DNA of 64,000 bases from Anaerolineae bacterium. Its GTDB lineage: Bacteria > Chloroflexota > Anaerolineae > Aggregatilineales > Phototrophicaceae. Below, in pieces: positions 44,152-56,050 of the stretch. The notes under the pieces were generated by a model that saw only the letters and a program-made list of their open reading frames with translations, did no database searches and was not told the DNA's origin. Both the position numbers and the translations under genes were made by a program. Where the stretch lies: contig JAHDWN010000030.1 of assembly GCA_023382675.1 (NCBI GenBank), positions 1 through 64,000 of the forward strand, written 5' to 3'. Each line of letters starts with the position of its first letter. Position 1 is the stretch's first letter.

Positions 44152-44880
44152 ATGACGCGAAAAACACTGTTGCGCGGCCTGTTTATGCTGATGTTCCTGG
44201 CAGCAATCGCCATGATGCGAACTGAAACAATACAGGCGCAGGTGGATGCTATGTATGGCTTAATTTCAGTCGATAATGCTGAAGTGCGGATTGGCCCCGA
44301 TTTTGCCTACGACGCGATTGGACGCTTACCACGAGATACCTCAGTGACGATCATCGGGCGGGCTGGCGATTTCTACCAGCGTTGGGATGGGCGCCAGTGG
44401 GTCCAGATCGAGTTCGGCGCAACGCCCGCCTGGGTGTACGCCCGGCTGGTGCGTACCAGCGTCGCGTTCAACAGCATTCCACCGACAGGGCGGCTGTTGC
44501 CCCGTGATGCGAATGGGCGTGTGCCGGAAGGCTTCGATCTTTCGACCGATGTCTGTTCACAATGGGTTGGCGACTTCACTCGCAGCGGCGACTTCATGGC
44601 GGGCGACAATCGGCTGACAGTCACCTACCCCGGGCTGCAGGGCTCCAATGTCTATAGCGTGATCGTGATCTCGCCGTCGGGCGTGCGCCGCGCCTTTGAC
44701 AGCCAGACGACGACCTCGACCATCGACATCGGCTTTCTGCCCCAGGAAGCAGGGACTTACACCTGGCGTGTCGCTCCCTATTGGACAAACTCCAATTACC
44801 GTTACAACTGGCAGCAAGTCTGTTTGCTGCGAACGGGGGGCACTTTCGAGAAACCGTTCACGGGGCCACCATCATCATAG
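44152..44880 (+). CDS. Secreted SH3-domain protein
   Basis: The 242-residue exported protein has a signal peptide (RKTLLRGLFMLMFLAAIAMMRTETIQAQ) and a bacterial SH3 domain at about residues 35-105 (ISVDNAEVRIGPDFAYDAIGRLPRDTSVTIIG, then WVQIEFGATPAWVYARLVR). The C-terminal domain (CSQWVGDFTRSGDFMAGDNRLTVTYPGLQGSNVYSVIVISP to YTWRVAPYW) resembles an Ig-like fold. Bacterial SH3 domains bind cell-wall peptides or other ligands. GGAGAGG precedes the ATG. It converges on the six-gene secreted-protein operon and shares its SH3 theme, as does the gene at 54380. Confidence 0.75.
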   Translation: MTRKTLLRGLFMLMFLAAIAMMRTETIQAQVDAMYGLISVDNAEVRIGPDFAYDAIGRLPRDTSVTIIGRAGDFYQRWDGRQWVQIEFGATPAWVYARLVRTSVAFNSIPPTGRLLPRDANGRVPEGFDLSTDVCSQWVGDFTRSGDFMAGDNRLTVTYPGLQGSNVYSVIVISPSGVRRAFDSQTTTSTIDIGFLPQEAGTYTWRVAPYWTNSNYRYNWQQVCLLRTGGTFEKPFTGPPSS

Positions 44881-44913
44881 GGGTCTGGCGCACCAAACCC
44901 CGTAGATCATGGT

Positions 44914-45921
44914 TCAAAGGCGGGCCTGGACGACATTGTCTTCCAGGTCTTGCAGGCGTTCGAGCGTTGCGTCGAAGATGATCCGCGCATTTATACCGGC
45001 ATCACGCGCATCGCCGACGATGCTTGGCGAAACGATGCCACAGGTCAGCAGGGGTTCACGCGATAACTGCATGTAACTGATGGCTTCAGTCAGGCGGGGG
45101 ATATACCGCTCCAATTCTGGAAGCTGGCGGACATCATCGTCACCGTAGGGGTAAGTTGTGAACTCTGCCGGCGCATCGCAGGGCATGATTTCGCCGCGGA
45201 AGACACGCCACCAGAACTGCTCGAGTTGAACCGCATAGGCGCGGCGCTCGAAGACGAACGCACGCAGCCGGTCGATTTGCGCCTGTTGCAGCTCGACCGG
45301 GATGATGATGACAGGCACGCCTTCAAGCGGCGGCAGGTTGGATGCCTGTGGGATTTCGAGAACGCGGCTCAGCTCTCGCCCCGCAAACGCGACGATCCAG
45401 CCCTGATGGCCGCGATAGTTGATGAACAGCCATGAGCCATCCTGATTGCGCGCCAACACCGGTACCGTGATCGAGGCAGGCAGTTCGACGTAGGGCTGTA
45501 CCGATGGAGAACGTCGCGAAGGCTGCGTCCGCAAGGTGGGCGCTTCTGCGAGGAAGATCGCAAAGGGTGGCGCTTCCAGCAGCGGCGTGGGGCCGGTCAA
45601 ACCCGTCGCCAGATCGCCAAGCGGCAGCAGTTCGGGGTAGAAATCCCAATCGAGCGTCCCCTCGAAGATCCAGCCCAAGGTATTGAAACGCCCCGGACGC
45701 CGCACCTCGAACCAGGTGCCATCCAGATTGCGGCTGATTGCCTCCAGAATTTCGCCTTCGAAGACAGATGCCGTCGCTTCCGCCTCAAAATCTGGCAGGA
45801 CGCGCGCAAAGGCACTTTCCACCCGCACGCGCCCCCGGAAATCGGTTGCGCCACTATCCTGTGCCGCGACCGTCGTGACGCCGAGCACAAGTAACATCAG
45901 GGCAATCAAGATACGCTTCAT
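44914..45921 (-). CDS. Secreted protein with two SH3-like domains; last gene of exported-protein operon
   Basis: The 335-residue protein has a signal peptide (KRILIALMLLVLGVTTVAAQ), then an SH3-like unit (VRVESAFARVLPDFEAEATASVFEGEILEAI to WFEVRRPGRFNTLGWI, residues 30-95). A second unit follows (APTLRTQPSRRSPSVQPYVELPASITVPVLA to FINYRGHQGWIVA, about 125-190). The C-terminal half is a helical region with two cysteines (MPCDAP and LTCGIV) that may pair; the same C-terminal pattern occurs in the SH3 protein at 49278. The start codon overlaps the stop of the solute-binding protein gene (ATGA), so the two are translated together. Function unknown. Confidence 0.75.
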   Translation of the reverse strand: MKRILIALMLLVLGVTTVAAQDSGATDFRGRVRVESAFARVLPDFEAEATASVFEGEILEAISRNLDGTWFEVRRPGRFNTLGWIFEGTLDWDFYPELLPLGDLATGLTGPTPLLEAPPFAIFLAEAPTLRTQPSRRSPSVQPYVELPASITVPVLARNQDGSWLFINYRGHQGWIVAFAGRELSRVLEIPQASNLPPLEGVPVIIIPVELQQAQIDRLRAFVFERRAYAVQLEQFWWRVFRGEIMPCDAPAEFTTYPYGDDDVRQLPELERYIPRLTEAISYMQLSREPLLTCGIVSPSIVGDARDAGINARIIFDATLERLQDLEDNVVQARL

Positions 45922-47636
45922 CGTGTCACCACCCAGTCTGTGATGTTCCACAACGGCTCGCCCGGAAACGGCGAAAAGTTGACGATGCCGCGCGCACTGT
46001 AGAAGTCATTACGCGCGTAGAGCCACGTCGCGGGCAGTTCCTCATTCAGTAACCGTTGGACTTGCTGGTAGATGTCCGCGCGGGCCTGGATGCTGCAAGT
46101 CGGAACGCTGCGTGCCTGCTCAAGCAGACTTTCAAGCTCTGGATTCACATATGAACCCAGATTCCCGACGCGCACGCCGAGGACATCCATCGCTTGTGTA
46201 AACTGATAGGTCAGATCGGGTTCGCGCGCCCACAGAGATGCCCCGCTGGTTCCGGTCAGCAGCAGGTCGAAGTCCTGTCTTGAACCGTCGTCATAGTAGA
46301 TCTCGACTGCGATGCCGACGCGCCCAAGCTGTACCTGAATTATCTCTGCGACCTGTTGGCGCACCTCGTCGTTGTCAACCATCAGCCTCAATGACAACGA
46401 TGAACGCCGCTCAGGATACGTGCAGCCGACGCAGCGACGACTCTCGCTTCCGCGCCAACCCGCCTCATCCAACAGCCGTTCTGCCTCCACCGGATCGTAA
46501 TCCCAGGCAGTCAGGGAGGGATCATACGCCCAGGATGCTGGCGAATAAGCACCGTTCAAGGCTACGCCGCCACCATGCAGCGCGCCGTCGATCAGCGCCT
46601 GCGTGTCGATAGCCAGTCGGATCGCCCTGCGGACGCGAACATCCCACAAGATCGGATGCGGCAGTTGTTCCAGGGGGCCAGCGTCAATGAAGGCCGGACG
46701 GGGATAATTCGGGTCGGACAGATTAAAGACGAGTCGATCCGCCGCATAACCCGGCGCTTCGTAAAGCTGAATATCGCCCAGATTGCGCAGGTCGGCGCGC
46801 TCGGCAAAGGGCGGATCGAGCAGGAGATTGATGTCTTTTCCAGTGAGTGACTCGAAAGCGGGTGAATCGAAGCTGTTTTCGTCGATGACGAGGCCGCTGC
46901 TGGTGGTGATGACATAATTGGCTCCATCATTCGTCTGAATAAGAAACTGCCCGCCCCAGGGAATATCATCGATTGAACCCTGACTGGTAGCAGCGTCAGG
47001 TTGCCCCCATTCGACCCTGAATGCCTCGCGATAGGCTTTTTGCCAATCCGCTAATGAAGGTACGCCCGCGTGCTCTGCCTGGAATGACAGCGCGAACTGA
47101 CGAAACGATGCTGCAAAGCTCGTAACCGGCATGATGACGCTGTTAAGCCGGGCCTGCGCCGTGCAATCGGGCGAACGATAAGTCACTGTGAAGGTGCGCT
47201 CTCCATCGATGCGCAGCCCGTCGATGATGGTCAGGCTCGCCGGCGCTCGCAGCTCACGCCCAATGACGCTGAAGGCGACATCATAGGCGCTGATGGGGGT
47301 GCCGTCGCTCCAGAGCAGGTCTGCCTGGATGGTGTACTGCTGTTCGGCGCTGGGCAGTACCGGCGGATCGCCGATGAGGATGCGTTCTCCTGGCTCAGCC
47401 GCGCGGATGACGCCCGTTGCGGGGTCGGAGGCGAACAAGCCGGGAAGAAGCAACCGGGCGATGCGCAAACAGCTCACATCCGAGCAGTTAAACAGTTCAA
47501 AATCGCTGCGCTCGGTGAAACCGCGCCCCAGTTCCAGAATTTGAAGCACACCATGCCCCTCTTGTGCATATGAGGTGAGGGCGGCCATCAACATAACCAA
47601 CAACAGCAGCGGCATCCGCAGCGAGTGGCGTCTCAT
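45918..47636 (-). CDS. ABC-type solute-binding protein, family 5 (peptide/nickel type)
   Basis: The 572-residue exported protein has a signal peptide and the SBP_bac_5 fold. The entry motif is ADLLWSDGTPISAYDVAFSV, the middle contains WDVRVRRAIRLAIDTQALIDGALHGGG, and later come AYDPSLTAWDYDPVEAERLLDEAGW and VQLGRVGIAVEIYYDDGS. Homologues bind oligopeptides, nickel complexes or sugars for import. No lipobox is visible and no ABC permease or ATPase gene is nearby, so it may work as a free or complexed binding protein. A cysteine-rich loop (SRRCVGCTY) is unusual. The start overlaps the TPR gene upstream (ATGA), as does its stop with the SH3 gene. Confidence 0.85.
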   Translation of the reverse strand: MRRHSLRMPLLLLVMLMAALTSYAQEGHGVLQILELGRGFTERSDFELFNCSDVSCLRIARLLLPGLFASDPATGVIRAAEPGERILIGDPPVLPSAEQQYTIQADLLWSDGTPISAYDVAFSVIGRELRAPASLTIIDGLRIDGERTFTVTYRSPDCTAQARLNSVIMPVTSFAASFRQFALSFQAEHAGVPSLADWQKAYREAFRVEWGQPDAATSQGSIDDIPWGGQFLIQTNDGANYVITTSSGLVIDENSFDSPAFESLTGKDINLLLDPPFAERADLRNLGDIQLYEAPGYAADRLVFNLSDPNYPRPAFIDAGPLEQLPHPILWDVRVRRAIRLAIDTQALIDGALHGGGVALNGAYSPASWAYDPSLTAWDYDPVEAERLLDEAGWRGSESRRCVGCTYPERRSSLSLRLMVDNDEVRQQVAEIIQVQLGRVGIAVEIYYDDGSRQDFDLLLTGTSGASLWAREPDLTYQFTQAMDVLGVRVGNLGSYVNPELESLLEQARSVPTCSIQARADIYQQVQRLLNEELPATWLYARNDFYSARGIVNFSPFPGEPLWNITDWVVTR

Positions 47637-48367
47637 GGCGTCCCCCAGTCGGCGGGCCGCATCAACCCCAACCAGACGCTGTAGTTTCCGGTGCGCAGGC
47701 CATTGTCAATCGCCGAGAGCATTTGCGTTGGCGTGCCGGCGGGGAGCAGCGCTTCATCGGAGCCACTGACCTCCAGGTAGCGCTGGTAGTTCTGCACCGC
47801 CAGAGCGGAGTAGATGCTGCCGAGCGTAGCGTACGACACTGGATTGTCCGGATGTTGCGTGGTGGCGGTCTCCAAATCTGCCAGCGCCAGGTCGTAATTG
47901 CCTTCGATGGCATGAACGACCGCGCGGTTGTTGAGCGCGATGGCGTTGCCCGGCTCCAGGCTGAGCGCTAGGCTCAAATCTGCCAGCGCCAGCCCAAAGT
48001 TCCCGGCCTGAGCGTAAAACATGCCACGGTTGATGTAAACTTCGACCAGCGTCTCATCGATGGCGAGCGCTGCATCATAGTCCGCCAGCGCGGCATCGGC
48101 ATCGCCCAGCGCCGATTGGCTGACTGCGCGCCGCGCGTAGGCTGGCGCATAATTCGGGTCGGCTGCCAGCGCGCACGTGTAATCGACGATTGCTCGCGCG
48201 TGCTGCGCCGATGCTGCGTGAGCATCACCCTGCCCGACAAAGTAGACGGCTGGAGCTATACCCGGAGGTGCGCTGCATTCGTCGGCAGCGTCTTGAGCCG
48301 CAGCTGGGTGTACCAGCAGCAGACTCAGGATGATTGCGCTACCGAGAAGCGTGAACCATCTGTTCAT
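47633..48367 (-). CDS. Secreted TPR protein
   Basis: The 244-residue exported protein has a signal peptide (WFTLLGSAIILSLLLVHPAAAQ) and about four tetratricopeptide repeats between residues 50 and 190, for example ARAIVDYTCALAADPNYAPAYARRAVSQ, DADAALADYDAALAIDETLVEVYINRGM and NFGLALADLSLALSLEPGNAIALNNRAV. The C-terminal 50 residues (YQRYLEVSGSDEALLPAG) are not TPR. TPR proteins mediate protein contacts, so this is probably a scaffold. The stop overlaps the solute-binding gene (ATGA), and the TPR gene upstream ends nine bases earlier. Confidence 0.85.
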   Translation of the reverse strand: MNRWFTLLGSAIILSLLLVHPAAAQDAADECSAPPGIAPAVYFVGQGDAHAASAQHARAIVDYTCALAADPNYAPAYARRAVSQSALGDADAALADYDAALAIDETLVEVYINRGMFYAQAGNFGLALADLSLALSLEPGNAIALNNRAVVHAIEGNYDLALADLETATTQHPDNPVSYATLGSIYSALAVQNYQRYLEVSGSDEALLPAGTPTQMLSAIDNGLRTGNYSVWLGLMRPADWGTP

Positions 48368-48376
48368 CGCTGCCTC

Positions 48377-49222
48377 CTACAATCCGGCGTCGTCTGGGAA
48401 TCTGGACAGCAGCAGCCATGAGCCATCATCGAGACGCAGTTCAAACGTGAAACGTGACTCCAATGCCCCGGCTGCCGAGCCAACCCGGTCATCTACAAAC
48501 AGGCCTGCGCCGTTGTAGAGTTCGACATAGTTACGGAAGTTGGTGAGCGCCTGCCGCTCATAAACGATGCCGAGCAGGGCATACAGGCGCGCATGATCGG
48601 AGTTGAACAGAATAGGATCATCCGTGTTGCGGTTGGGATCGCGGTACTGGCTCAGGATGCCATCGATATTGGTCGTGTGGATCTTGTCTTCGAGCAGCGC
48701 GATGGCAGCATCGTATTCGCCCAGCACCGTGTGCAGCACCGCAAGATTGCTGTAGGCGGGGGCATAGTCGGCGTTGCTCTCCAACGCGCGGTTGAAGTCT
48801 GCCCGCGCGCGCGGGTAATCACGCCACTGCATGAACAGATAGCCCCGGTCATTGTAGGCCGCCGCCAGATCGGGCGCGAGCTGCACCGCACGATTCAAAT
48901 CCGCCAGTGCGCGTTCGTATTCCGCCAAGCGGGTATAAACGCGCGCACGACCGATCCAACCTGCCGTATAGTTGGCATCGATGACGCGGACAATGCAGGA
49001 GAAACTGATGCGCGCCGCGTCAAGCTGGTTGTTGTTCAGGTAGGCCAGCCCTTCGCCCATGTAGTAAGCCGTGCGTGACTCGCGGGGTTCGCCCGCAAAT
49101 GCTGGACAGTTGGGCAGCGGTTCTTCCGGCAGCGGCGTCGGCGTTGGGTCTTGCGCCCAGACGACACTCGCCATGACCATGAGAGCAATGAGCATTACGA
49201 CGCTGATGAGATTTTTCTTCAC
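48377..49222 (-). CDS. Secreted TPR protein
   Basis: The 281-residue exported protein has a signal peptide (KKNLISVVMLIALMVMASVVWAQ), a Pro/Thr linker (DPTPTPLPEEPLPNC) and TPR units from about residue 50: TAYYMGEGLAYLNNNQLDAARISFSCIV, TAGWIGRARVYTRLAEYERALADLNRAVQLAPD, YPRARADFNRALESNADYAPAYSNLA. The C-terminus contains a strand pair that reads RFTFELRLDDGSWLLLSRF. It is paralogous in layout to the TPR protein at 47633. Both precede the solute-binding protein gene, which suggests they assemble a complex with it. Confidence 0.85.
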   Translation of the reverse strand: MKKNLISVVMLIALMVMASVVWAQDPTPTPLPEEPLPNCPAFAGEPRESRTAYYMGEGLAYLNNNQLDAARISFSCIVRVIDANYTAGWIGRARVYTRLAEYERALADLNRAVQLAPDLAAAYNDRGYLFMQWRDYPRARADFNRALESNADYAPAYSNLAVLHTVLGEYDAAIALLEDKIHTTNIDGILSQYRDPNRNTDDPILFNSDHARLYALLGIVYERQALTNFRNYVELYNGAGLFVDDRVGSAAGALESRFTFELRLDDGSWLLLSRFPDDAGL

Positions 49223-49277
49223 GAGATTGTCCTTTCAAATACAAAGAATGATGATGTCATTGTCCGGGAAAGCTGCC

Positions 49278-50285
49278 TCAATATCCCCCGCCGGTGGAGG
49301 TATCGAGCAGCGGATTGCGCAGCGCCAGCGGTTCCAAAAATGAACCCGCTACCAGTAGCGCCCGTTCGGCTTCTGCAAGGCGCAGCGATTGCGCCTGAAC
49401 ATAATCGCGCGTCAGCACGAAGCCAGGCGCGCACGCATCTTCAAAGGCGCTGATCGCCGTGTTGATGTTGGCGGTCGCATCGTTAAGCGCGACCACCGCC
49501 GGCCCAAACAAAGGTTCGCGCAGAACATCCTCCTCAGTGAGTTCGTTGTCGATGCGGGGCGGGAGTGGCGCACAGGCAACCTGCTGCCCGCCGCTGAGGC
49601 GCGACCAAACGCCGTCGATCTGGCGAAAGCTGCCCAACGCCAGCGCGACATCCTGCTGTAGCCTGAGTATCAGCCGCCCGTAGGGATACAGATAAGCCAG
49701 ATCGAGCAAGCGCAGGTAATCGCCATCCACGATGCGGATGTTCCAGTTGCCGACCCAATAAAGCTGCCCCTGCCAGCGCACCTGAAATTGGAAGAAACCG
49801 CGCTCGCCCAGGCGTCCCGTCAACTCGACTTCGTAATCAATCGGGATTGTGCCGAGTGGCGTGCCCGTCAGGTCTGGGTTGGCAAAGAAGGGTGTTTCGC
49901 GCGTGGTCACGCCGACGGCTGCCGCGCGCCGGATAAACGGATAGGGATCAACGCCATCGACCGGCAGATCGATGATGTCGCCGCTCCAAACCAGGTAGCG
50001 TGAGGATAGCCAGCCGCGCTGCCCTTCATAGAGCACCTGTACCCACTGCGTATCTGATGAGCGGCCATATGCGGGCAGCGTCGTCGTCGCTGGAACCACG
50101 GCCAGGCGCTGAAAGGCGGTGCCTGGCCCCTGCCGCAGCGACAGGAAATCCTGGGTCGTGACGTAGACGCTGGTCGGCGGCACTTCGGTTGGTGTGTCCT
50201 GGGCATGAATGCGCCCGAACGCCAGAATCACTCCGAGGACGATGCCTACGCACGTTAGGAACGCCAAGCAGGAACGAGTCTTCAT
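49278..50285 (-). CDS. Secreted SH3-domain protein
   Basis: The 335-residue exported protein has a signal peptide (CLAFLTCVGIVLGVILAFGRIHAQ) and an SH3 domain at about residues 40-105 (VYVTTQDFLSLRQGPGTAFQRLAVVPATTTLPAYG to QVLYEGQRGWLSSRYLVW). A second SH3-like unit follows (VTTRETPFFANPDLTGTPLGTIPIDYEVEL), then a helical C-terminal region (LTEEDVLREPLFGPAVVALNDATANINTAISAFEDAC). The stretch LLDLAYLYPYGRLILRLQQD and the pair of cysteines resemble the C-terminal half of the SH3 protein at 44914. The start overlaps the stop of the giant propeller gene (ATGA). Confidence 0.78.
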   Translation of the reverse strand: MKTRSCLAFLTCVGIVLGVILAFGRIHAQDTPTEVPPTSVYVTTQDFLSLRQGPGTAFQRLAVVPATTTLPAYGRSSDTQWVQVLYEGQRGWLSSRYLVWSGDIIDLPVDGVDPYPFIRRAAAVGVTTRETPFFANPDLTGTPLGTIPIDYEVELTGRLGERGFFQFQVRWQGQLYWVGNWNIRIVDGDYLRLLDLAYLYPYGRLILRLQQDVALALGSFRQIDGVWSRLSGGQQVACAPLPPRIDNELTEEDVLREPLFGPAVVALNDATANINTAISAFEDACAPGFVLTRDYVQAQSLRLAEAERALLVAGSFLEPLALRNPLLDTSTGGGY

Positions 50286-53200
50286 CGTGTTCCTCCGTCG
50301 TCAGTCCATACGCTCAAGCCGGTTGCCTGAGTGCTGATCACGGTTGCATATCCCGTTTGCGTATCCAGGATGATGGTGCTGGGGAACTGCGCTTGATACT
50401 GCACTTCGAGCGGGACAGGTGTGGTGGTCGGCGCTGTGGTGTAGGGCACCAGCGTCGGGCCAGGGGTTGGGAAATTGTCGCCTTCAATCGGCAGTGTGGT
50501 TGTAAAGGCGATGTAGCGCCCGTCCGGTGACCACACGAAGGCGTCAGGGAGCAGTTGGAAACCGGTCTGCGGAACACAGTAGCGACGGATTGCACCAGTC
50601 TCGACGTCGGTGATTTGCAGTTTCAGCGGCAGTTCACCCCTCTGAAGACGATCACGTTGATCATCGCTGTTGTTGTAGCTGGAGGCTCGATAGCGACCGT
50701 CTGGCGACCAGATCCCTGAAGAGCGATGTGGAATCTGGTAATGTGTTCGCGTCGCCGCATCGAAACGGAAGTAATCGCCGCCGCTTGCGTAATCGAGGAA
50801 GCGACCGAGGGGATCCCATTCCGCATAATCCAGATTGCGGGCGAAGTACTCGGCGGTGTCTGTTTCCCGATCGTAAATGTAGTATTTGCTCGTGAACGAG
50901 TCGTAAGGTGTCGTCACCAGGGAGAGCAACCCGCCTGGCTGGAGATCATCTCGCTGGATGGGTAATTCGCCGATGCGCACCGGATCACTCACGGTGAGCG
51001 GCACAAACGGTTCGCTCAATCTGCCCGTCTGCGGGTCAAAATCCCGCTGCACATGGATTTGGCCGCGATATTCTTCCGGCAGATAGCCGCTGGAGCCGAT
51101 ACGCAAGATATTGCTGGGCAACCACTGCGCCTGGTAAGGTGCGCTGATGTTGTTGCCCGGCGGAATGACGGTTGTCGCTTGTGAGCCATCGACGCGCGAG
51201 ACCATCACGCCATCGCCGACCTGGGCAATCCACTGCCGGTCGAACGAAAATGCGCAACTTCCATTGCCCACACAGCGCGGAATCGCGGCATCGGCATACT
51301 GGTGACCCGTTCCAGGCTCTATCACCCAGGTCCCACTTGATACGACAGATGACTGCGCCAGCAAACGTCCATGCGCGGCATAGTCTGGCGGTGTGCTTTC
51401 GAGGCTAAACAACGTGCGCGCCGGGCAGAGCGTCGTCACCGATTCGTCCCAGGCAGGTGGCGTGGCTTCGGCGAGCACAGGCGCAGCAATAGTTGGCGTC
51501 GGGGTGAGCGTTGGCCGAATCGCACCAATCGCTTCGTAGGCGGCGGTCGCCGTCGGTGCCAGGCCAATACTGCGCACGCCATCCGCTTGTAGCGTTGCGC
51601 GGGCAAGCTGCCCTTCGCGGATGAATTCGTCGTAAGTTCGTGTGAGGCGATAGAGACGGACGAACCCATTTTGGTCGAACTCGGCTGCGAGTCGCCCATC
51701 GGGGCTGATCGTCAGTGTGTTTGGCGGTCGATTAAATTGGCGGGCAAAGGCGTCGATAAGCGGCGTCATCTCGCGCTGTAGCTGCGTCGGTGGTAGATAG
51801 TCTCCCTGTGACCGCTGGCCGGTTTCGACATCGAAGGCAATCACCATTGGGCGAAATTCTTGGCCGCCGCCGGTGGTTTGTGGCGCCGCGTCAATCGGTG
51901 TTGGTGTGGGCGGCACGGCAAGGTTGGGATTGATGGTCGGTGTCGGTTGGATGCTGTTGACTGAGCTAATCAAGCCCTCGCAGATCATCCCCTCTAACTC
52001 AGCGACTTGATCTTGAGTGAGACCGGCGGAAATCTCGCGCCAGAGCGTGGCATAGCGCGTAGCTTCGAACGGGAAATGTTCAGTCAAACACAGCGGCACG
52101 CCGGGGATGACATAGGGCAGCGGTGTGGGCTGACTGCGATAGATGAAAGGCGGTGTGGGCGTGAGTGCCGGGACAACGGCATCGGCTGTTTCGGGCAATG
52201 CAGCACACAAGCGCAAGGCGAGGCGATTGATGAATTCGCTGTCCTGGCGCAAGCGAATCGCTTCCCACACGATCTGCCAGTCGGCGGCTTGATCTGGGAA
52301 TGCGCGGACGAGGCAGGCGGGCAGCCCGGAGGGATCGTAGTCTACGCCGTAGACTCGCTCGGGCTGATCATAGTACGGGGTGCCCATCACATAGATTTTG
52401 TTGGTGTCGAGCCAGCCATACTGCCGATAATCTGGAGAAGGGAGATCATCGCCGGATGCCCAGAGTACTTGACCACGCCCGAAGGTATACACAGCAATAT
52501 CGCTTCCGCTGATGAAACCATCGTTGTAAACAACCAGGAGGCTTTCCCAGGTTTCATTCGGAATGATTTGCTCAATGAAAAGACCGGGCACAGATGGAAT
52601 TTCGAGAACACGCCGACTGTTCTGGCGAATGTCAATCAGATTGATGATGGCTGGATCGCCGTTTTCATCACTGCGGGTCAGATAACGTGCGGAGTCTGGC
52701 GATCGAGCGATGATCTGCTGTCCCTGCACCAGCGTCAGCGAGGCGCGCTCGTGGGGCTGCCCGGTGGAAATGTCCCATGATTGCCAATCGTCGCCCCGGA
52801 TAGTGATGAGATTCTGGCTGCTTTCATCGAAGGTGAAGCGTTCAAATCCGCGGGTGTATTCTGGCAGATAGGCTAGCATATCCCCGTTCTGGGCGTCGAA
52901 GCGCTGGAAGTCACTGATAATGACGCTGCCGTCGGCATTGAATGCCAGGACACGCTCACCCGCGCCATCCGGCTCCGCCGGCACGATACTCAGATCGAGC
53001 GTGCAGCTTTGCAGATCGTAGAGTTCGATGGCTTGCTCTCCTGATGCGCGCCGCACCATTAAGCGCGTTTGATCGGGGCTGAGCAGCATGTGTTGAACGT
53101 CCGGCGGGCGAATGAGTTCAATCGTTCCCCGCCCGCGTTCCTCGTTGAAGCTATAGAGGAGCAGCGCACCCCGTTCCTGCCCCATCGTCAGCGGTTGCAG

Positions 53201-54196
53201 AACGTCGAGCAGCATGACTGTGACCGGCTCATAATTCTGGTAGCTCAGATAGCCTTCGCCATGAAACAGGCGCAGTAGCGATGACTCGCCTGGATCTGCC
53301 AGGGGACACAGCACCCGCGCGCTCCTCGACAGGCGAAAATCGTTCATCTCGGCCAGATTGCGATAATTGAGATTGATGCCGAGACGCAGGTCAAACAACG
53401 CGCCGCTGTCGGTATCGATCTGTTCAATGGCAGCGTTGTTTCCAGGGTCGGCATACAGCATGTTGTCGAAGGCACTTCTCCAGACAGTGATCGGGTCACG
53501 TTCGAAGCGGTTGGCGGAGATTTCGCCGACGACCGGAAAGCCAGACCGTCCACCATCTAACACCATCAAGCGATTGGGAATGCCACCCACCAGATAAGTG
53601 TTTGCACCCACAACCAGGCCATTGCGATACTCGAAGAAGGGGTAGCCATCTTCCAGGCTGGCATAACGCGATGGCCGTTCGCCGCGTCCCGCTTCCAGAT
53701 CCCACAGCCAGGGAATAATGCTGGTGTCGTTTTCACTCCGGCGGAGTTCCTGGGGCGCGGGCACCACTGTATCGAGCAGCAGATAGCGGTCGTCCGGGGT
53801 GAAATGCAGCGGGCCTTGCACCAGATTTGCGCCCGCTGGCTCGAACATGGCGGTGCGCTGCCCGGTGGCTGTCTCCCATAGTTCCACCCGCCGGTCAATT
53901 GCCAGGGCTAACCACAGACCATCGTGACTGAAGCGATAGGCGTTGTATGCCCCGCTCTCGTAAAGGGTGTGCAGGAGTTGATAACTGGCGGCATCGACCA
54001 GAACGAGCCGTCCATCATCATCAACCCAGGCGAAACGGTCAAACTGAGGATCATATTGGATGCCCTGTGGTCGAGGCGCGCCAATCTGACCGATAGGCAC
54101 GAAGAGGGCGTTCTCCGGTGCAGGCTGTGCCATGACCACCGCGACACCGAACAACAAGGCGAGAACAGCAGTTTGCAGTAACAAGGCACGTTTCAT
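50282..54196 (-). CDS. Giant secreted beta-propeller protein; first gene of exported-protein operon
   Basis: This exported protein of 1304 residues has a signal peptide (KRALLLQTAVLALLFGVAVVMAQ) and two WD40/TolB-like propeller regions. The first (about 30-640) has blades such as FDRFAWVDDDGRLVLVDAASYQLLHTL and FSHDGLWLALAIDRRVELWETATGQ. The second (about 820-1300) includes NTLTISPDGRLAAEFDQNGFVRLYRL, GIWSPDGRYRASSYN and FVWSPDGRYIAFTTTL. Thr/Pro-rich linkers (around LTPTPPF, QPTPTINPNLAVPPTPTP and LTPTPTIA) separate them. It is probably a binding or scaffolding protein at the surface. I chose ATG 54196, where the signal peptide begins; the open frame extends to 54313. Confidence 0.8.
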   Translation of the reverse strand: MKRALLLQTAVLALLFGVAVVMAQPAPENALFVPIGQIGAPRPQGIQYDPQFDRFAWVDDDGRLVLVDAASYQLLHTLYESGAYNAYRFSHDGLWLALAIDRRVELWETATGQRTAMFEPAGANLVQGPLHFTPDDRYLLLDTVVPAPQELRRSENDTSIIPWLWDLEAGRGERPSRYASLEDGYPFFEYRNGLVVGANTYLVGGIPNRLMVLDGGRSGFPVVGEISANRFERDPITVWRSAFDNMLYADPGNNAAIEQIDTDSGALFDLRLGINLNYRNLAEMNDFRLSRSARVLCPLADPGESSLLRLFHGEGYLSYQNYEPVTVMLLDVLQPLTMGQERGALLLYSFNEERGRGTIELIRPPDVQHMLLSPDQTRLMVRRASGEQAIELYDLQSCTLDLSIVPAEPDGAGERVLAFNADGSVIISDFQRFDAQNGDMLAYLPEYTRGFERFTFDESSQNLITIRGDDWQSWDISTGQPHERASLTLVQGQQIIARSPDSARYLTRSDENGDPAIINLIDIRQNSRRVLEIPSVPGLFIEQIIPNETWESLLVVYNDGFISGSDIAVYTFGRGQVLWASGDDLPSPDYRQYGWLDTNKIYVMGTPYYDQPERVYGVDYDPSGLPACLVRAFPDQAADWQIVWEAIRLRQDSEFINRLALRLCAALPETADAVVPALTPTPPFIYRSQPTPLPYVIPGVPLCLTEHFPFEATRYATLWREISAGLTQDQVAELEGMICEGLISSVNSIQPTPTINPNLAVPPTPTPIDAAPQTTGGGQEFRPMVIAFDVETGQRSQGDYLPPTQLQREMTPLIDAFARQFNRPPNTLTISPDGRLAAEFDQNGFVRLYRLTRTYDEFIREGQLARATLQADGVRSIGLAPTATAAYEAIGAIRPTLTPTPTIAAPVLAEATPPAWDESVTTLCPARTLFSLESTPPDYAAHGRLLAQSSVVSSGTWVIEPGTGHQYADAAIPRCVGNGSCAFSFDRQWIAQVGDGVMVSRVDGSQATTVIPPGNNISAPYQAQWLPSNILRIGSSGYLPEEYRGQIHVQRDFDPQTGRLSEPFVPLTVSDPVRIGELPIQRDDLQPGGLLSLVTTPYDSFTSKYYIYDRETDTAEYFARNLDYAEWDPLGRFLDYASGGDYFRFDAATRTHYQIPHRSSGIWSPDGRYRASSYNNSDDQRDRLQRGELPLKLQITDVETGAIRRYCVPQTGFQLLPDAFVWSPDGRYIAFTTTLPIEGDNFPTPGPTLVPYTTAPTTTPVPLEVQYQAQFPSTIILDTQTGYATVISTQATGLSVWTDDGGTR

Positions 54197-54379
54197 CAAT
54201 TTTGTTTCCCACTTATGTCGGGCTATCTTTATCGTATGTGAAAACGCATCTGCGCAACCTGCATATTGCTCACCGTTCGCCCCACGCGAAAACAACGCCT
54301 GACCTACGGGCAAAAAACTGGCGCTAGGTTAAAGGAAAGACACAATGATCTGCGCGCACACGACCAAGGGAGCGCTGCC

Positions 54380-56050
54380 ATGAAGCGACATCAATTCGCC
54401 GTTTTTTTCTTACTCTTATGCGCTTGTACGTTTGGCTGGGCACCGTTGCCCAGGATGCTCCGGGCGCAATCCACGCCTGTTTGCCCGACATCGATATTGC
54501 TGGATGTTTCGCGCGCGGCCAGCACCTGTTTCCGCCTCGAACCCGGTGAAATCTGTGCTGGCAATGGCGCGATCTCGGCGTCCGGGTTTGCTGGTGAAGT
54601 GCTTATGGCTCAGGCGGGTGATCGCGCTGCCCTGAGCGCCGTCAATACACTCTCCGCCGCGGTGACGGATGACGACCTGGGCATCGTCACGCTCAGCTCA
54701 TACGACGGAGGTGAGCCTTTAGCAGGTGCGTTCACGCTGGTGGCATTGGGCGACGTAACACTGACGAACCAGGTCACGCCACTGCCCACACTGGACGCCA
54801 TTGCCATTGGCAGTGTCAACATCCGCAGCGCGCCGGGGCAAGACGCCGAGATCATTGCTCACGCGGGTGTCAACGATGGGTTGATCGTGAATGGACGCAG
54901 CAGCGACAACCGTTGGGCGCGGGTCGCTGTGCCGGGTGAGCACGTGTTTGGCTGGGCGTCGGTGGATGTACTCAACATTCGAGGCAATCTACTGACGCTA
55001 GCACTTGCGAGTCCGGGACAGCCAGTGCTGGATGCATTCCGCGTCTTTGATCTGGCCACGGGCGCGAATACGGCGTGTGAGGGAGGACTGCCGAGCGGCA
55101 TCCTGCTCCAGAGTGCCAACAACGAACAGAGCGCGTTCATGCAGATAGGCAGCACGCGCTTGCAGGTGCATGGCACTGCTTTCATCACGGCTCCAACTGC
55201 TGACAGTGACCCTAGCGTCTATGTGCTGGCTGGCTACGCCATCATCCATAGTGATGCGGGCGACCTCATCTTCATTCCTGCTGGCGGCGTTCACAGCGCG
55301 GCGAGTGCAGTGCCTTTCGAGCCAGCTTCGGTGGCGCTGCTGCCCGTTCAACTGCTGCCGGTCTCCATCCGCTTGCCGGCTGCGATCACCGAGACGGACA
55401 TCGCCCGCCTGACTGAAGCCTATCTCAACACGCTTGCTGCCGCGCAAGCGACGCCCACTCCTCAGCCGACGGCTGATCCAACCATTTGTCGCCGTGTGAC
55501 GCGGGGCACGACGACGCTCTACGCTGGCCCCGGCGAATTCTACGAAGCGATCAATTCCCTGCCAGCAGGAGCATCGGTCAGGCCCGTTATTGCTGCCAGC
55601 GATCCTGATGGGCGCATCTGGTGGCAGCTCACGACCAGTAACTGGCTCCTTACCAGCCAGGTTCGGGAAACTGGACTGTGCCCGGATGTGCCGCGTACGC
55701 AGAACATCACACCACCGCGCAATAACACCCTCTCACTCGAAACCTGTGAGACAACCAACGGCCCCCTGCGCGCTGGACAACAGGTAACGATTCAATTCAC
55801 GCCGCCTGCGTTCGATAACTGGGGTGAGGCACGCGACGCCGTTCGCATCGATCCAGGGCGCATTAGTGTCGGCGCGCGCACCTATCGCGCCCAGGCGACC
55901 TCACCGATCCGGCTGGGCACAACAGACGATGACGAGCGCTACCTGCGCACGTTCTACATCGTCTGGAATGCCGTCCCCGGTACGCACCGCATCGTAGGCG
56001 ATCGCCTGTCGTATGAGCCGATTTGTACTCTGGTTGTCCCTGTAGGCTAG
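54380..56050 (+). CDS. Secreted SH3-domain protein, divergent from the exported-protein operon
   Basis: The 556-residue exported protein has a signal peptide (KRHQFAVFFLLLCACTFGWAPL). It has a first SH3 domain around residues 165-230 (IAIGSVNIRSAPGQDAEIIAHAGVNDGLIVNG to VFGWASVDVLNIRG), a central FecR-like segment (QIGSTRLQVHGTAFITAP to FIPAGGVHSA), a Thr/Pro linker (ATPTPQPTADP), and a second SH3 unit (TTTLYAGPGEFYEAINSLPAGASVRPVI). A C-terminal Ig-like domain ends WNAVPGTHRIVGDRLSYEPIC. The final domain resembles that of the SH3 protein at 44152. Divergent placement suggests shared control with the operon. ATG 54380 is chosen because the signal peptide begins there and AAGGGAG precedes it. 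Confidence 0.75.
   Translation: MKRHQFAVFFLLLCACTFGWAPLPRMLRAQSTPVCPTSILLDVSRAASTCFRLEPGEICAGNGAISASGFAGEVLMAQAGDRAALSAVNTLSAAVTDDDLGIVTLSSYDGGEPLAGAFTLVALGDVTLTNQVTPLPTLDAIAIGSVNIRSAPGQDAEIIAHAGVNDGLIVNGRSSDNRWARVAVPGEHVFGWASVDVLNIRGNLLTLALASPGQPVLDAFRVFDLATGANTACEGGLPSGILLQSANNEQSAFMQIGSTRLQVHGTAFITAPTADSDPSVYVLAGYAIIHSDAGDLIFIPAGGVHSAASAVPFEPASVALLPVQLLPVSIRLPAAITETDIARLTEAYLNTLAAAQATPTPQPTADPTICRRVTRGTTTLYAGPGEFYEAINSLPAGASVRPVIAASDPDGRIWWQLTTSNWLLTSQVRETGLCPDVPRTQNITPPRNNTLSLETCETTNGPLRAGQQVTIQFTPPAFDNWGEARDAVRIDPGRISVGARTYRAQATSPIRLGTTDDDERYLRTFYIVWNAVPGTHRIVGDRLSYEPICTLVVPVG

Follow-up and report, generated by a model that had tools for sequence, protein, structure and literature searches.

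Solute-binding proteins are usually annotated as parts of transporters. Going by excerpts of the papers cited here and below, signaling by binding proteins is an established phenomenon, so the principle is known (PMC6069109, PMC10384115, PMC9769921, PMC9602780): GlnH signals through partners other than its own transporter (PMC6069109, PMC9769921), and CuaD is a binding protein for signaling, apart from transport (PMC10384115). The locus that we compare with these systems is a cluster of eight genes, named A to H by coordinate, at positions 44,152 to 56,050 of a 64,000-nucleotide stretch of DNA from an Anaerolineae bacterium (Chloroflexota; assembly GCA_023382675.1, contig JAHDWN010000030.1, positions 1 to 64,000; here called the window). 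It encodes a binding protein, C, together with exported propeller, SH3, and TPR proteins.

As in the GlnH-GlnX-PknG system of Actinobacteria (PMC6069109, PMC9769921, PMC8546545), a binding protein is encoded in a conserved set of genes alongside partners unrelated to transport, an amino acid is a ligand (predicted here), and there is a TPR element, which in that system lies in PknG. However, GlnH is a lipoprotein that works with a four-transmembrane partner and a cytoplasmic kinase, whereas the cluster encodes neither a membrane protein nor a kinase, and its TPR proteins are exported. CuaD-CuaSR of Ruminiclostridium (PMC10384115) likewise features a second, non-transport binding protein, there for signal detection, but it adjoins a two-component system, of which there is none at the cluster. 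Opp/Dpp/App importers share with the cluster a binding protein of the SBP_bac_5 family (C, with AppA, 1xoc, as its best solved match); unlike them, the cluster lacks a permease and an ATPase, and its C protein stands apart in a tree from 10 transporter-type proteins and carries a conserved CxxC motif. Similarly, Liv-type binding proteins resemble P, the Peripla_BP_6 binding protein of a second type of this cluster (type II, described below), which also matches LivJ-like structures, but P is linked to propeller and SH3 genes, with no Liv permease family among the listed flanking families. In the titles and abstract openings of open-licence literature, searched for such a cluster or for orphan binding proteins and partly with over-strict queries, we found no description of the cluster and no precedent for a membrane-subunit-free scaffold or for an exchange of binding-protein families.

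We propose, tentatively and with a little less than even confidence, that the cluster encodes an exported envelope assembly whose exchangeable binding protein senses or captures external peptides or amino acids, and that it is not an uptake operon. It is possible, although less likely than not, that the cluster represents a new class of extracytoplasmic device, in which nutrients are read or captured by an exported propeller/SH3 scaffold by way of an interchangeable binding protein; the two types would then have recruited different families for one task, with neither a dedicated transporter nor a dedicated receptor. If true, the cluster would provide a clear example from nature of a binding-protein fold at work outside transport, and in Anaerolineae genomes, genes now labeled piecemeal as "SH3 domain protein" or "ABC substrate-binding protein" would come together in a defined unit open to testing.

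The gene order recurs in other genomes

Strong relatives of the propeller protein G (E <1e-40) were present in 14 of the 61 genomes searched, the window's genome included. Neighborhoods were annotated on fetched loci, at first by BLAST and later with family profiles. The set of loci arranged as in the window (type I) comprises 27 contigs, with duplicates avoided; in some cases the assembly has divided one cluster between two of these contigs, and others display just H and G. Every visible neighboring pair of core genes in these contigs fits the order H< >G-F-E-D-C-B, with H-G seen 20 times, G-F, F-E, E-D, and D-C 17 times each, and C-B 18 times. The nearest in-frame start creates a 4-base overlap at G/F in 12/17 and at C/B in 14/18 type I contigs, although the script takes the start closest to the junction and is thus biased toward overlaps. 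Gene A follows B, convergently in 15 contigs and co-directionally in one. Gene H was found in all 20 contigs in which the far side of G is visible, and C in all 16 that show G and extend past D. Since the same order recurs in other genomes, the arrangement reflects more than chance. The first-pass annotation, which had proposed a stoichiometric envelope complex, suggested a gene-neighborhood search and would have abandoned its idea for an order unique to this genome; the search recovered that order elsewhere, and relatives within the taxonomic order rule out a cluster unique to the window's genome.

There are exceptions to the pattern. In locus L048 (genome G016), B is missing after C, which ends early; in L132, A lies on the other side of H; and in the genome of L051, A is ~40 kb from the cluster (at L079). 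Gene A stands without the rest of the cluster at L064 (which begins near A at a contig end), L079, and L082, and with B only at L084, and these four stretches were excluded from the cluster counts. Past H of the type I cluster, L132 and L074 (G484:C151) hold another A gene and a partial second G-like gene, an arrangement that suggests neighboring clusters. In L152 (G029:C169:532-20531), A, B, and D have their usual length, whereas C, E, and H are short, and other open reading frames (ORFs) were found instead of G; this is a decayed type I cluster.

Within the window, 4-base overlaps occur at three junctions (G/F, D/C, and C/B), with gaps of 55 bases at F/E and 9 bases at E/D. The ORFs, strands, and junctions all bear out the earlier description of eight genes, six of them in one minus-strand run joined by overlaps or short gaps (Table 1). 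A signal peptide had been claimed for every product, and indeed each of the eight has one hydrophobic stretch at its N terminus, the maximum 19-residue Kyte-Doolittle mean elsewhere being 0.97 to 1.71; together with inspection ("export-type N-termini"), this is the basis on which we call the proteins exported. Also as claimed, no permease, ATPase, sortase, or enzyme family exceeded its cut-off in the eight products (Pfam, NCBIfam). The Pfam scan of these products found neither a PF00005 ATPase nor a kinase domain, and the Kyte-Doolittle profiles found no second strongly hydrophobic segment. An anti-phage defence system was considered and rejected, as none of the 8 proteins matched a PADLOC family at an E of 0.001 or below.

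Table 1. Genes of the cluster, with coordinates in the window
Gene	Position	Strand	Product	Cluster type	Basis
A	44152-44880	+	exported SH3b + C-terminal domain protein, 242 aa	both	ORF, SH3_3 match, alignment
B	44914-45921	-	exported protein of F-like architecture, C-terminal helical-type domain, two conserved Cys	both	
C	45918-47636	-	exported family-5 solute-binding protein, no linked permease	I	PF00496
D	47633-48367	-	exported TPR protein, 244 aa	I	Pfam
E	48377-49222	-	exported TPR protein, 281 aa	I	Pfam
F	49278-50285	-	exported protein, two SH3b-like domains and three long C-terminal helices (model)	both	
G	50282-54196	-	exported propeller protein, 1304 aa	both	ORF, weak WD40/PD40, AlphaFold
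H	54380-56050	+	exported SH3 protein, 556 aa, divergent from G	I	

Two cluster types carry different binding proteins

At type II loci (19 contigs, of which L052, L056, and L147 were assigned by gene content), G, F, A, and B are kept, C and H are missing, and the gene for P lies between G and A, divergent from G. P belongs to Peripla_BP_6, a different Pfam family and fold class from SBP_bac_5: of 8 type II binding-protein candidates run through Pfam, 7 matched Peripla_BP_6. The unmatched candidate, a 492-aa ORF of L040 (2544-4022), lies between P and A and matched nothing in Pfam at E up to 0.01. Two further proteins submitted along with these candidates were a TPR protein and an F. P adjoins the cluster in 13 of the 18 assessable type II loci (in two pieces in L133), L052 being left out of this count since its G runs off the contig. 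Type II loci have no TPR proteins, a long TPR gene in L040 being one possible exception. Given that type II dispenses with H and, with this possible exception, with TPR proteins, and carries another binding protein, the core of the cluster seems to consist of G, F, A, and B.

Type I was found in 22 genomes and type II in 17, including 6 with both, for a total of 33. In a G tree of 29 rows excluding the window, one branch splits the types with support 100/100, as does one branch (support 98) in a quick F tree of 30 rows, again excluding the window. Quick trees that include the window also split the types by one branch for G (30 rows, support 100), F (31 rows, 97), and B (29 rows, 95); the clade status of each type depends on the root. 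Genomes G484 and G483, both of another genus, are among the three nearest to the window for G, F, and B, and in the G tree, clusters from the genus of the window (G014, G001, and G005) sit in other places. The cluster is thus patchy, and it may have moved between genera or been anciently duplicated.

The binding proteins have no regularly linked permease

C matches SBP_bac_5 (PF00496) above the cut-off (E 3e-33), with its best stretch in the C-terminal half (263-468), and its relatives are 26-39% identical to the window's protein. Against solved structures, the C profile matched AppA best (E 1e-41) and also the murein peptide-binding proteins 4toz and 3o9p. Cysteines 158, 402, 405 (the latter two forming the CxxC), and 514 are kept in 19/19 aligned rows, and CxxC occurs in 19/19 cluster family-5 proteins versus 0/8 transporter proteins of the window's genome. 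In a quick tree, one branch (support 100) separates the 19 cluster C proteins, including that of the window, from 10 sampled transporter-type family-5 proteins. P has five cysteines in 12/12 rows and a sixth in 11/12, and its nearest solved matches are branched-chain amino-acid (Leu/Ile/Val-type, LivJ-like) binding proteins. Ligands predicted for SBP_bac_5 are, in the excerpted source, almost only peptides, and those for Peripla_BP_6 mostly branched-chain amino acids (PMC9602780). As these ligands are related, type I and type II may read related nutrients.

The window's genome has 20 family-5 places (from 21 rows, with two rows 0.4 kb apart on contig C1 merged), and a PF00528 match lies at most 2 kb from 17 of them, the others being C17:75824, C6:38412, and the cluster's C. 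None of the 150 PF00528 matches scored, out of 170 candidates, lies on the cluster's 83-kb contig (C30). Flanking ORFs in relatives were taken as up to two per side plus those inside the cluster, with out-of-frame ORFs running off contigs dropped. For type I, BPD_transp_1 was matched by 3/65 of them and ABC_tran (PF00005) by 5/65 (among 25 of 83 families listed). For type II, no family reached more than 2/50, ABC_tran being at 2/50, and neither PF00528 nor a Liv permease family is among the 25 of 68 families listed. The first-pass annotation had named a hidden ABC permease regularly linked to the binding protein in relatives as evidence against its proposal; within the examined flanks, these counts reject such a permease. 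A canonical family-5 gene with a permease directly past H was seen in a single case, G035:C7 (L039/L153).

The scaffold proteins

A, F, and H passed the Pfam cut-off for SH3_3, and B fell below it (best SH3 match, E 0.04); the SH3 label of the first-pass annotation thus stands for A, F, and H, while B, sub-cut-off in Pfam, is nevertheless alignable with the F family. The C-terminal domains that had been thought common to B and F and to A and H fared unequally: the B and F families align with an hhalign probability of 99.3% over 280 columns, and the match of A to H, which covers an SH3 and a C-terminal region, is weaker (76.6%, E 2e-5). A is the best conserved member of the cluster, with a BLAST identity of 41-74% in relatives.

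The AlphaFold model of F (pLDDT 86, pTM 0.56) features SH3b-like domains at 41-101 and 123-187, followed by C-terminal helices at 201-231, 258-284, and 293-322, with two conserved cysteines flanking the second helix. In a PDB fold search, whose whole-model TM-scores by query length are at most 0.20, the SH3 region resembled SH3b domains of an endolysin and of NlpC/P60 enzymes and an S-layer anchoring domain; the helical part has no assignable match among the best 50 of 884. G gives weak WD40/PD40 matches by sequence. Its model, which covers 1196 of 1304 residues (pLDDT 79), has many propeller-like strands and is matched best in the PDB by general WD40 proteins; at a pTM of 0.52, domain placement and blade counts are unreliable. 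G is built of a strand-rich N-terminal half, a helical segment with conserved cysteines (~625-745), a Pro/Thr-rich linker, and a second strand-rich half.

The helical domain of F and B was found in 2/400 genomes of a phylum sample (with at most 10 candidates scored per genome) and, across the order, in 73/154 genomes at E<=1e-5, which rules out that it is exclusive to the cluster. Weaker matches are often open frames of ~550-660 aa outside the cluster. Visual inspection of one solo exported protein of 563 aa (L158 811-2502, G029:C46) suggests a pair of SH3-like regions together with the helical domain and a tail rich in Cys, and similar matches were also obtained in genomes of the order that lack the cluster. 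F and B may have originated from such solo proteins.

A possible exported assembly and its alternatives

In the assembly that we envisage, which would be exported and without membrane subunits, the propeller G would act as the hub, and F and B, both of the double-SH3/helical kind, would, together with A, tie it to the envelope or to each other. The solute-binding protein would be the exchangeable ligand-reading part, with a family-5 (peptide-type) reader and TPR adaptors in type I and a Peripla_BP_6 (amino-acid-type) reader in type II. Closure of the binding protein on its ligand would alter its contacts with the scaffold, and this change would allow the assembly to sense external peptides or amino acids, or to capture them at the surface. 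We infer the physical complex, the anchoring by SH3 domains, the class of ligand, the sensing or capture, and any onward signal. That the slot needs ligand binding is suggested by the steady linkage of the scaffold set to a binding protein and by the use of another family in the sister system, and since the predicted ligands are related and a transporter is missing, sensing or surface capture is favored over dedicated uptake. The original proposal is supported in part, namely for a co-inherited exported unit without transporter partners, but the binding protein need not be of family 5.

Several observations weigh against this proposal. A binding protein is missing beside the cluster in 5/18 type II loci (L136, L139, L049, L056, and L147), and at the alignment column where LivJ-type proteins conserve a Ser, P is variable. 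In the window's genome, C shares the lack of a permease within 2 kb with two more family-5 places, and a Liv-type permease for P was sought among flanking ORFs only. A simple pattern found a lipobox in 0/10 of the transporter-type family-5 proteins (L001-L008, L153, and L091); because these lack it too, a missing anchor does not set the cluster apart, and the argument that no lipid anchor implies a secreted complex was given up. If the bacteria of this group are monoderm, transporter-type family-5 proteins without a lipobox are odd. Finally, the cluster encodes no transmembrane or cytoplasmic partner, which leaves the output of sensing unexplained.

The strongest rival, which we consider unlikely but not negligible, is that C and P are auxiliary binding proteins feeding unlinked ABC permeases, the cluster serving surface capture for uptake. 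In its favor, 150 PF00528 matches were scored in the genome, which has 19 family-5 places besides that of C, several binding proteins per Dpp permease are reported, in an excerpted source, for P. aeruginosa (PMC12728205), and the canonical family-5 gene and permease of G035 lie just beyond H. Yet the tree separates the cluster's family-5 proteins from the transporter-type ones sampled, and the steady linkage is to scaffold genes, that to a permease not being regular. Alternatively, the binding-protein fold might have been reused as a non-binding structural subunit of a surface-layer or adhesion complex. While the confinement of the best SBP_bac_5 stretch to the C-terminal half, the low identity of relatives to the window's C, the extra conserved cysteines, and the scaffold-type domains of the partners would fit such a role, the recruitment of two binding-protein families in sister systems is hard to explain for a mere building block, and P keeps Thr/Ser in 12/12 rows at the LivJ-type Thr position. 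We take this position and the LivJ-type Ser position to be ligand contacts, so that the pocket evidence for P, judged from its sequence, is mixed; overall, a purely structural role seems improbable. It is more improbable still that the cluster surveys the cell wall, with SH3b domains binding wall polymers and the binding protein collecting released wall peptides: the resemblance of F to wall-related SH3b domains (TM-scores at most 0.20) and the match of C to murein peptide-binding proteins point that way, but SH3b matches of this kind are general for the fold, the cluster has no wall hydrolase or transporter, and the type II protein is LivJ-like. An exported assembly with an exchangeable reader remains the reading that we prefer.

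Distribution of the cluster

Across the order (Chloroflexota, Anaerolineae), G was found in 33/154 genomes (E<=1e-60) and A likewise in 33/154 (E<=1e-30), with 32 genomes common to both sets (hypergeometric P of 9e-31, shared ancestry ignored). The two sets differ by G034, which has no A and whose only trace of G is a fragment located at one end of a 3.4-kb contig, next to the gene for a type II binding protein, and by G029, where A accompanies the decayed cluster. In the phylum sample, with at most 6 candidates scored per genome, A exceeded 300 bits in 2/400 genomes, that of the window and G029; the matches in another 62/400 genomes are short and nearly all on the SH3 part. The titles of the 36 named A loci point to Chloroflexi or Anaerolineae groups (Aggregatilineales in one case), with the exception of two records of one metagenome-assembled genome titled Bacteroidetes, a title that is probably a mislabel.

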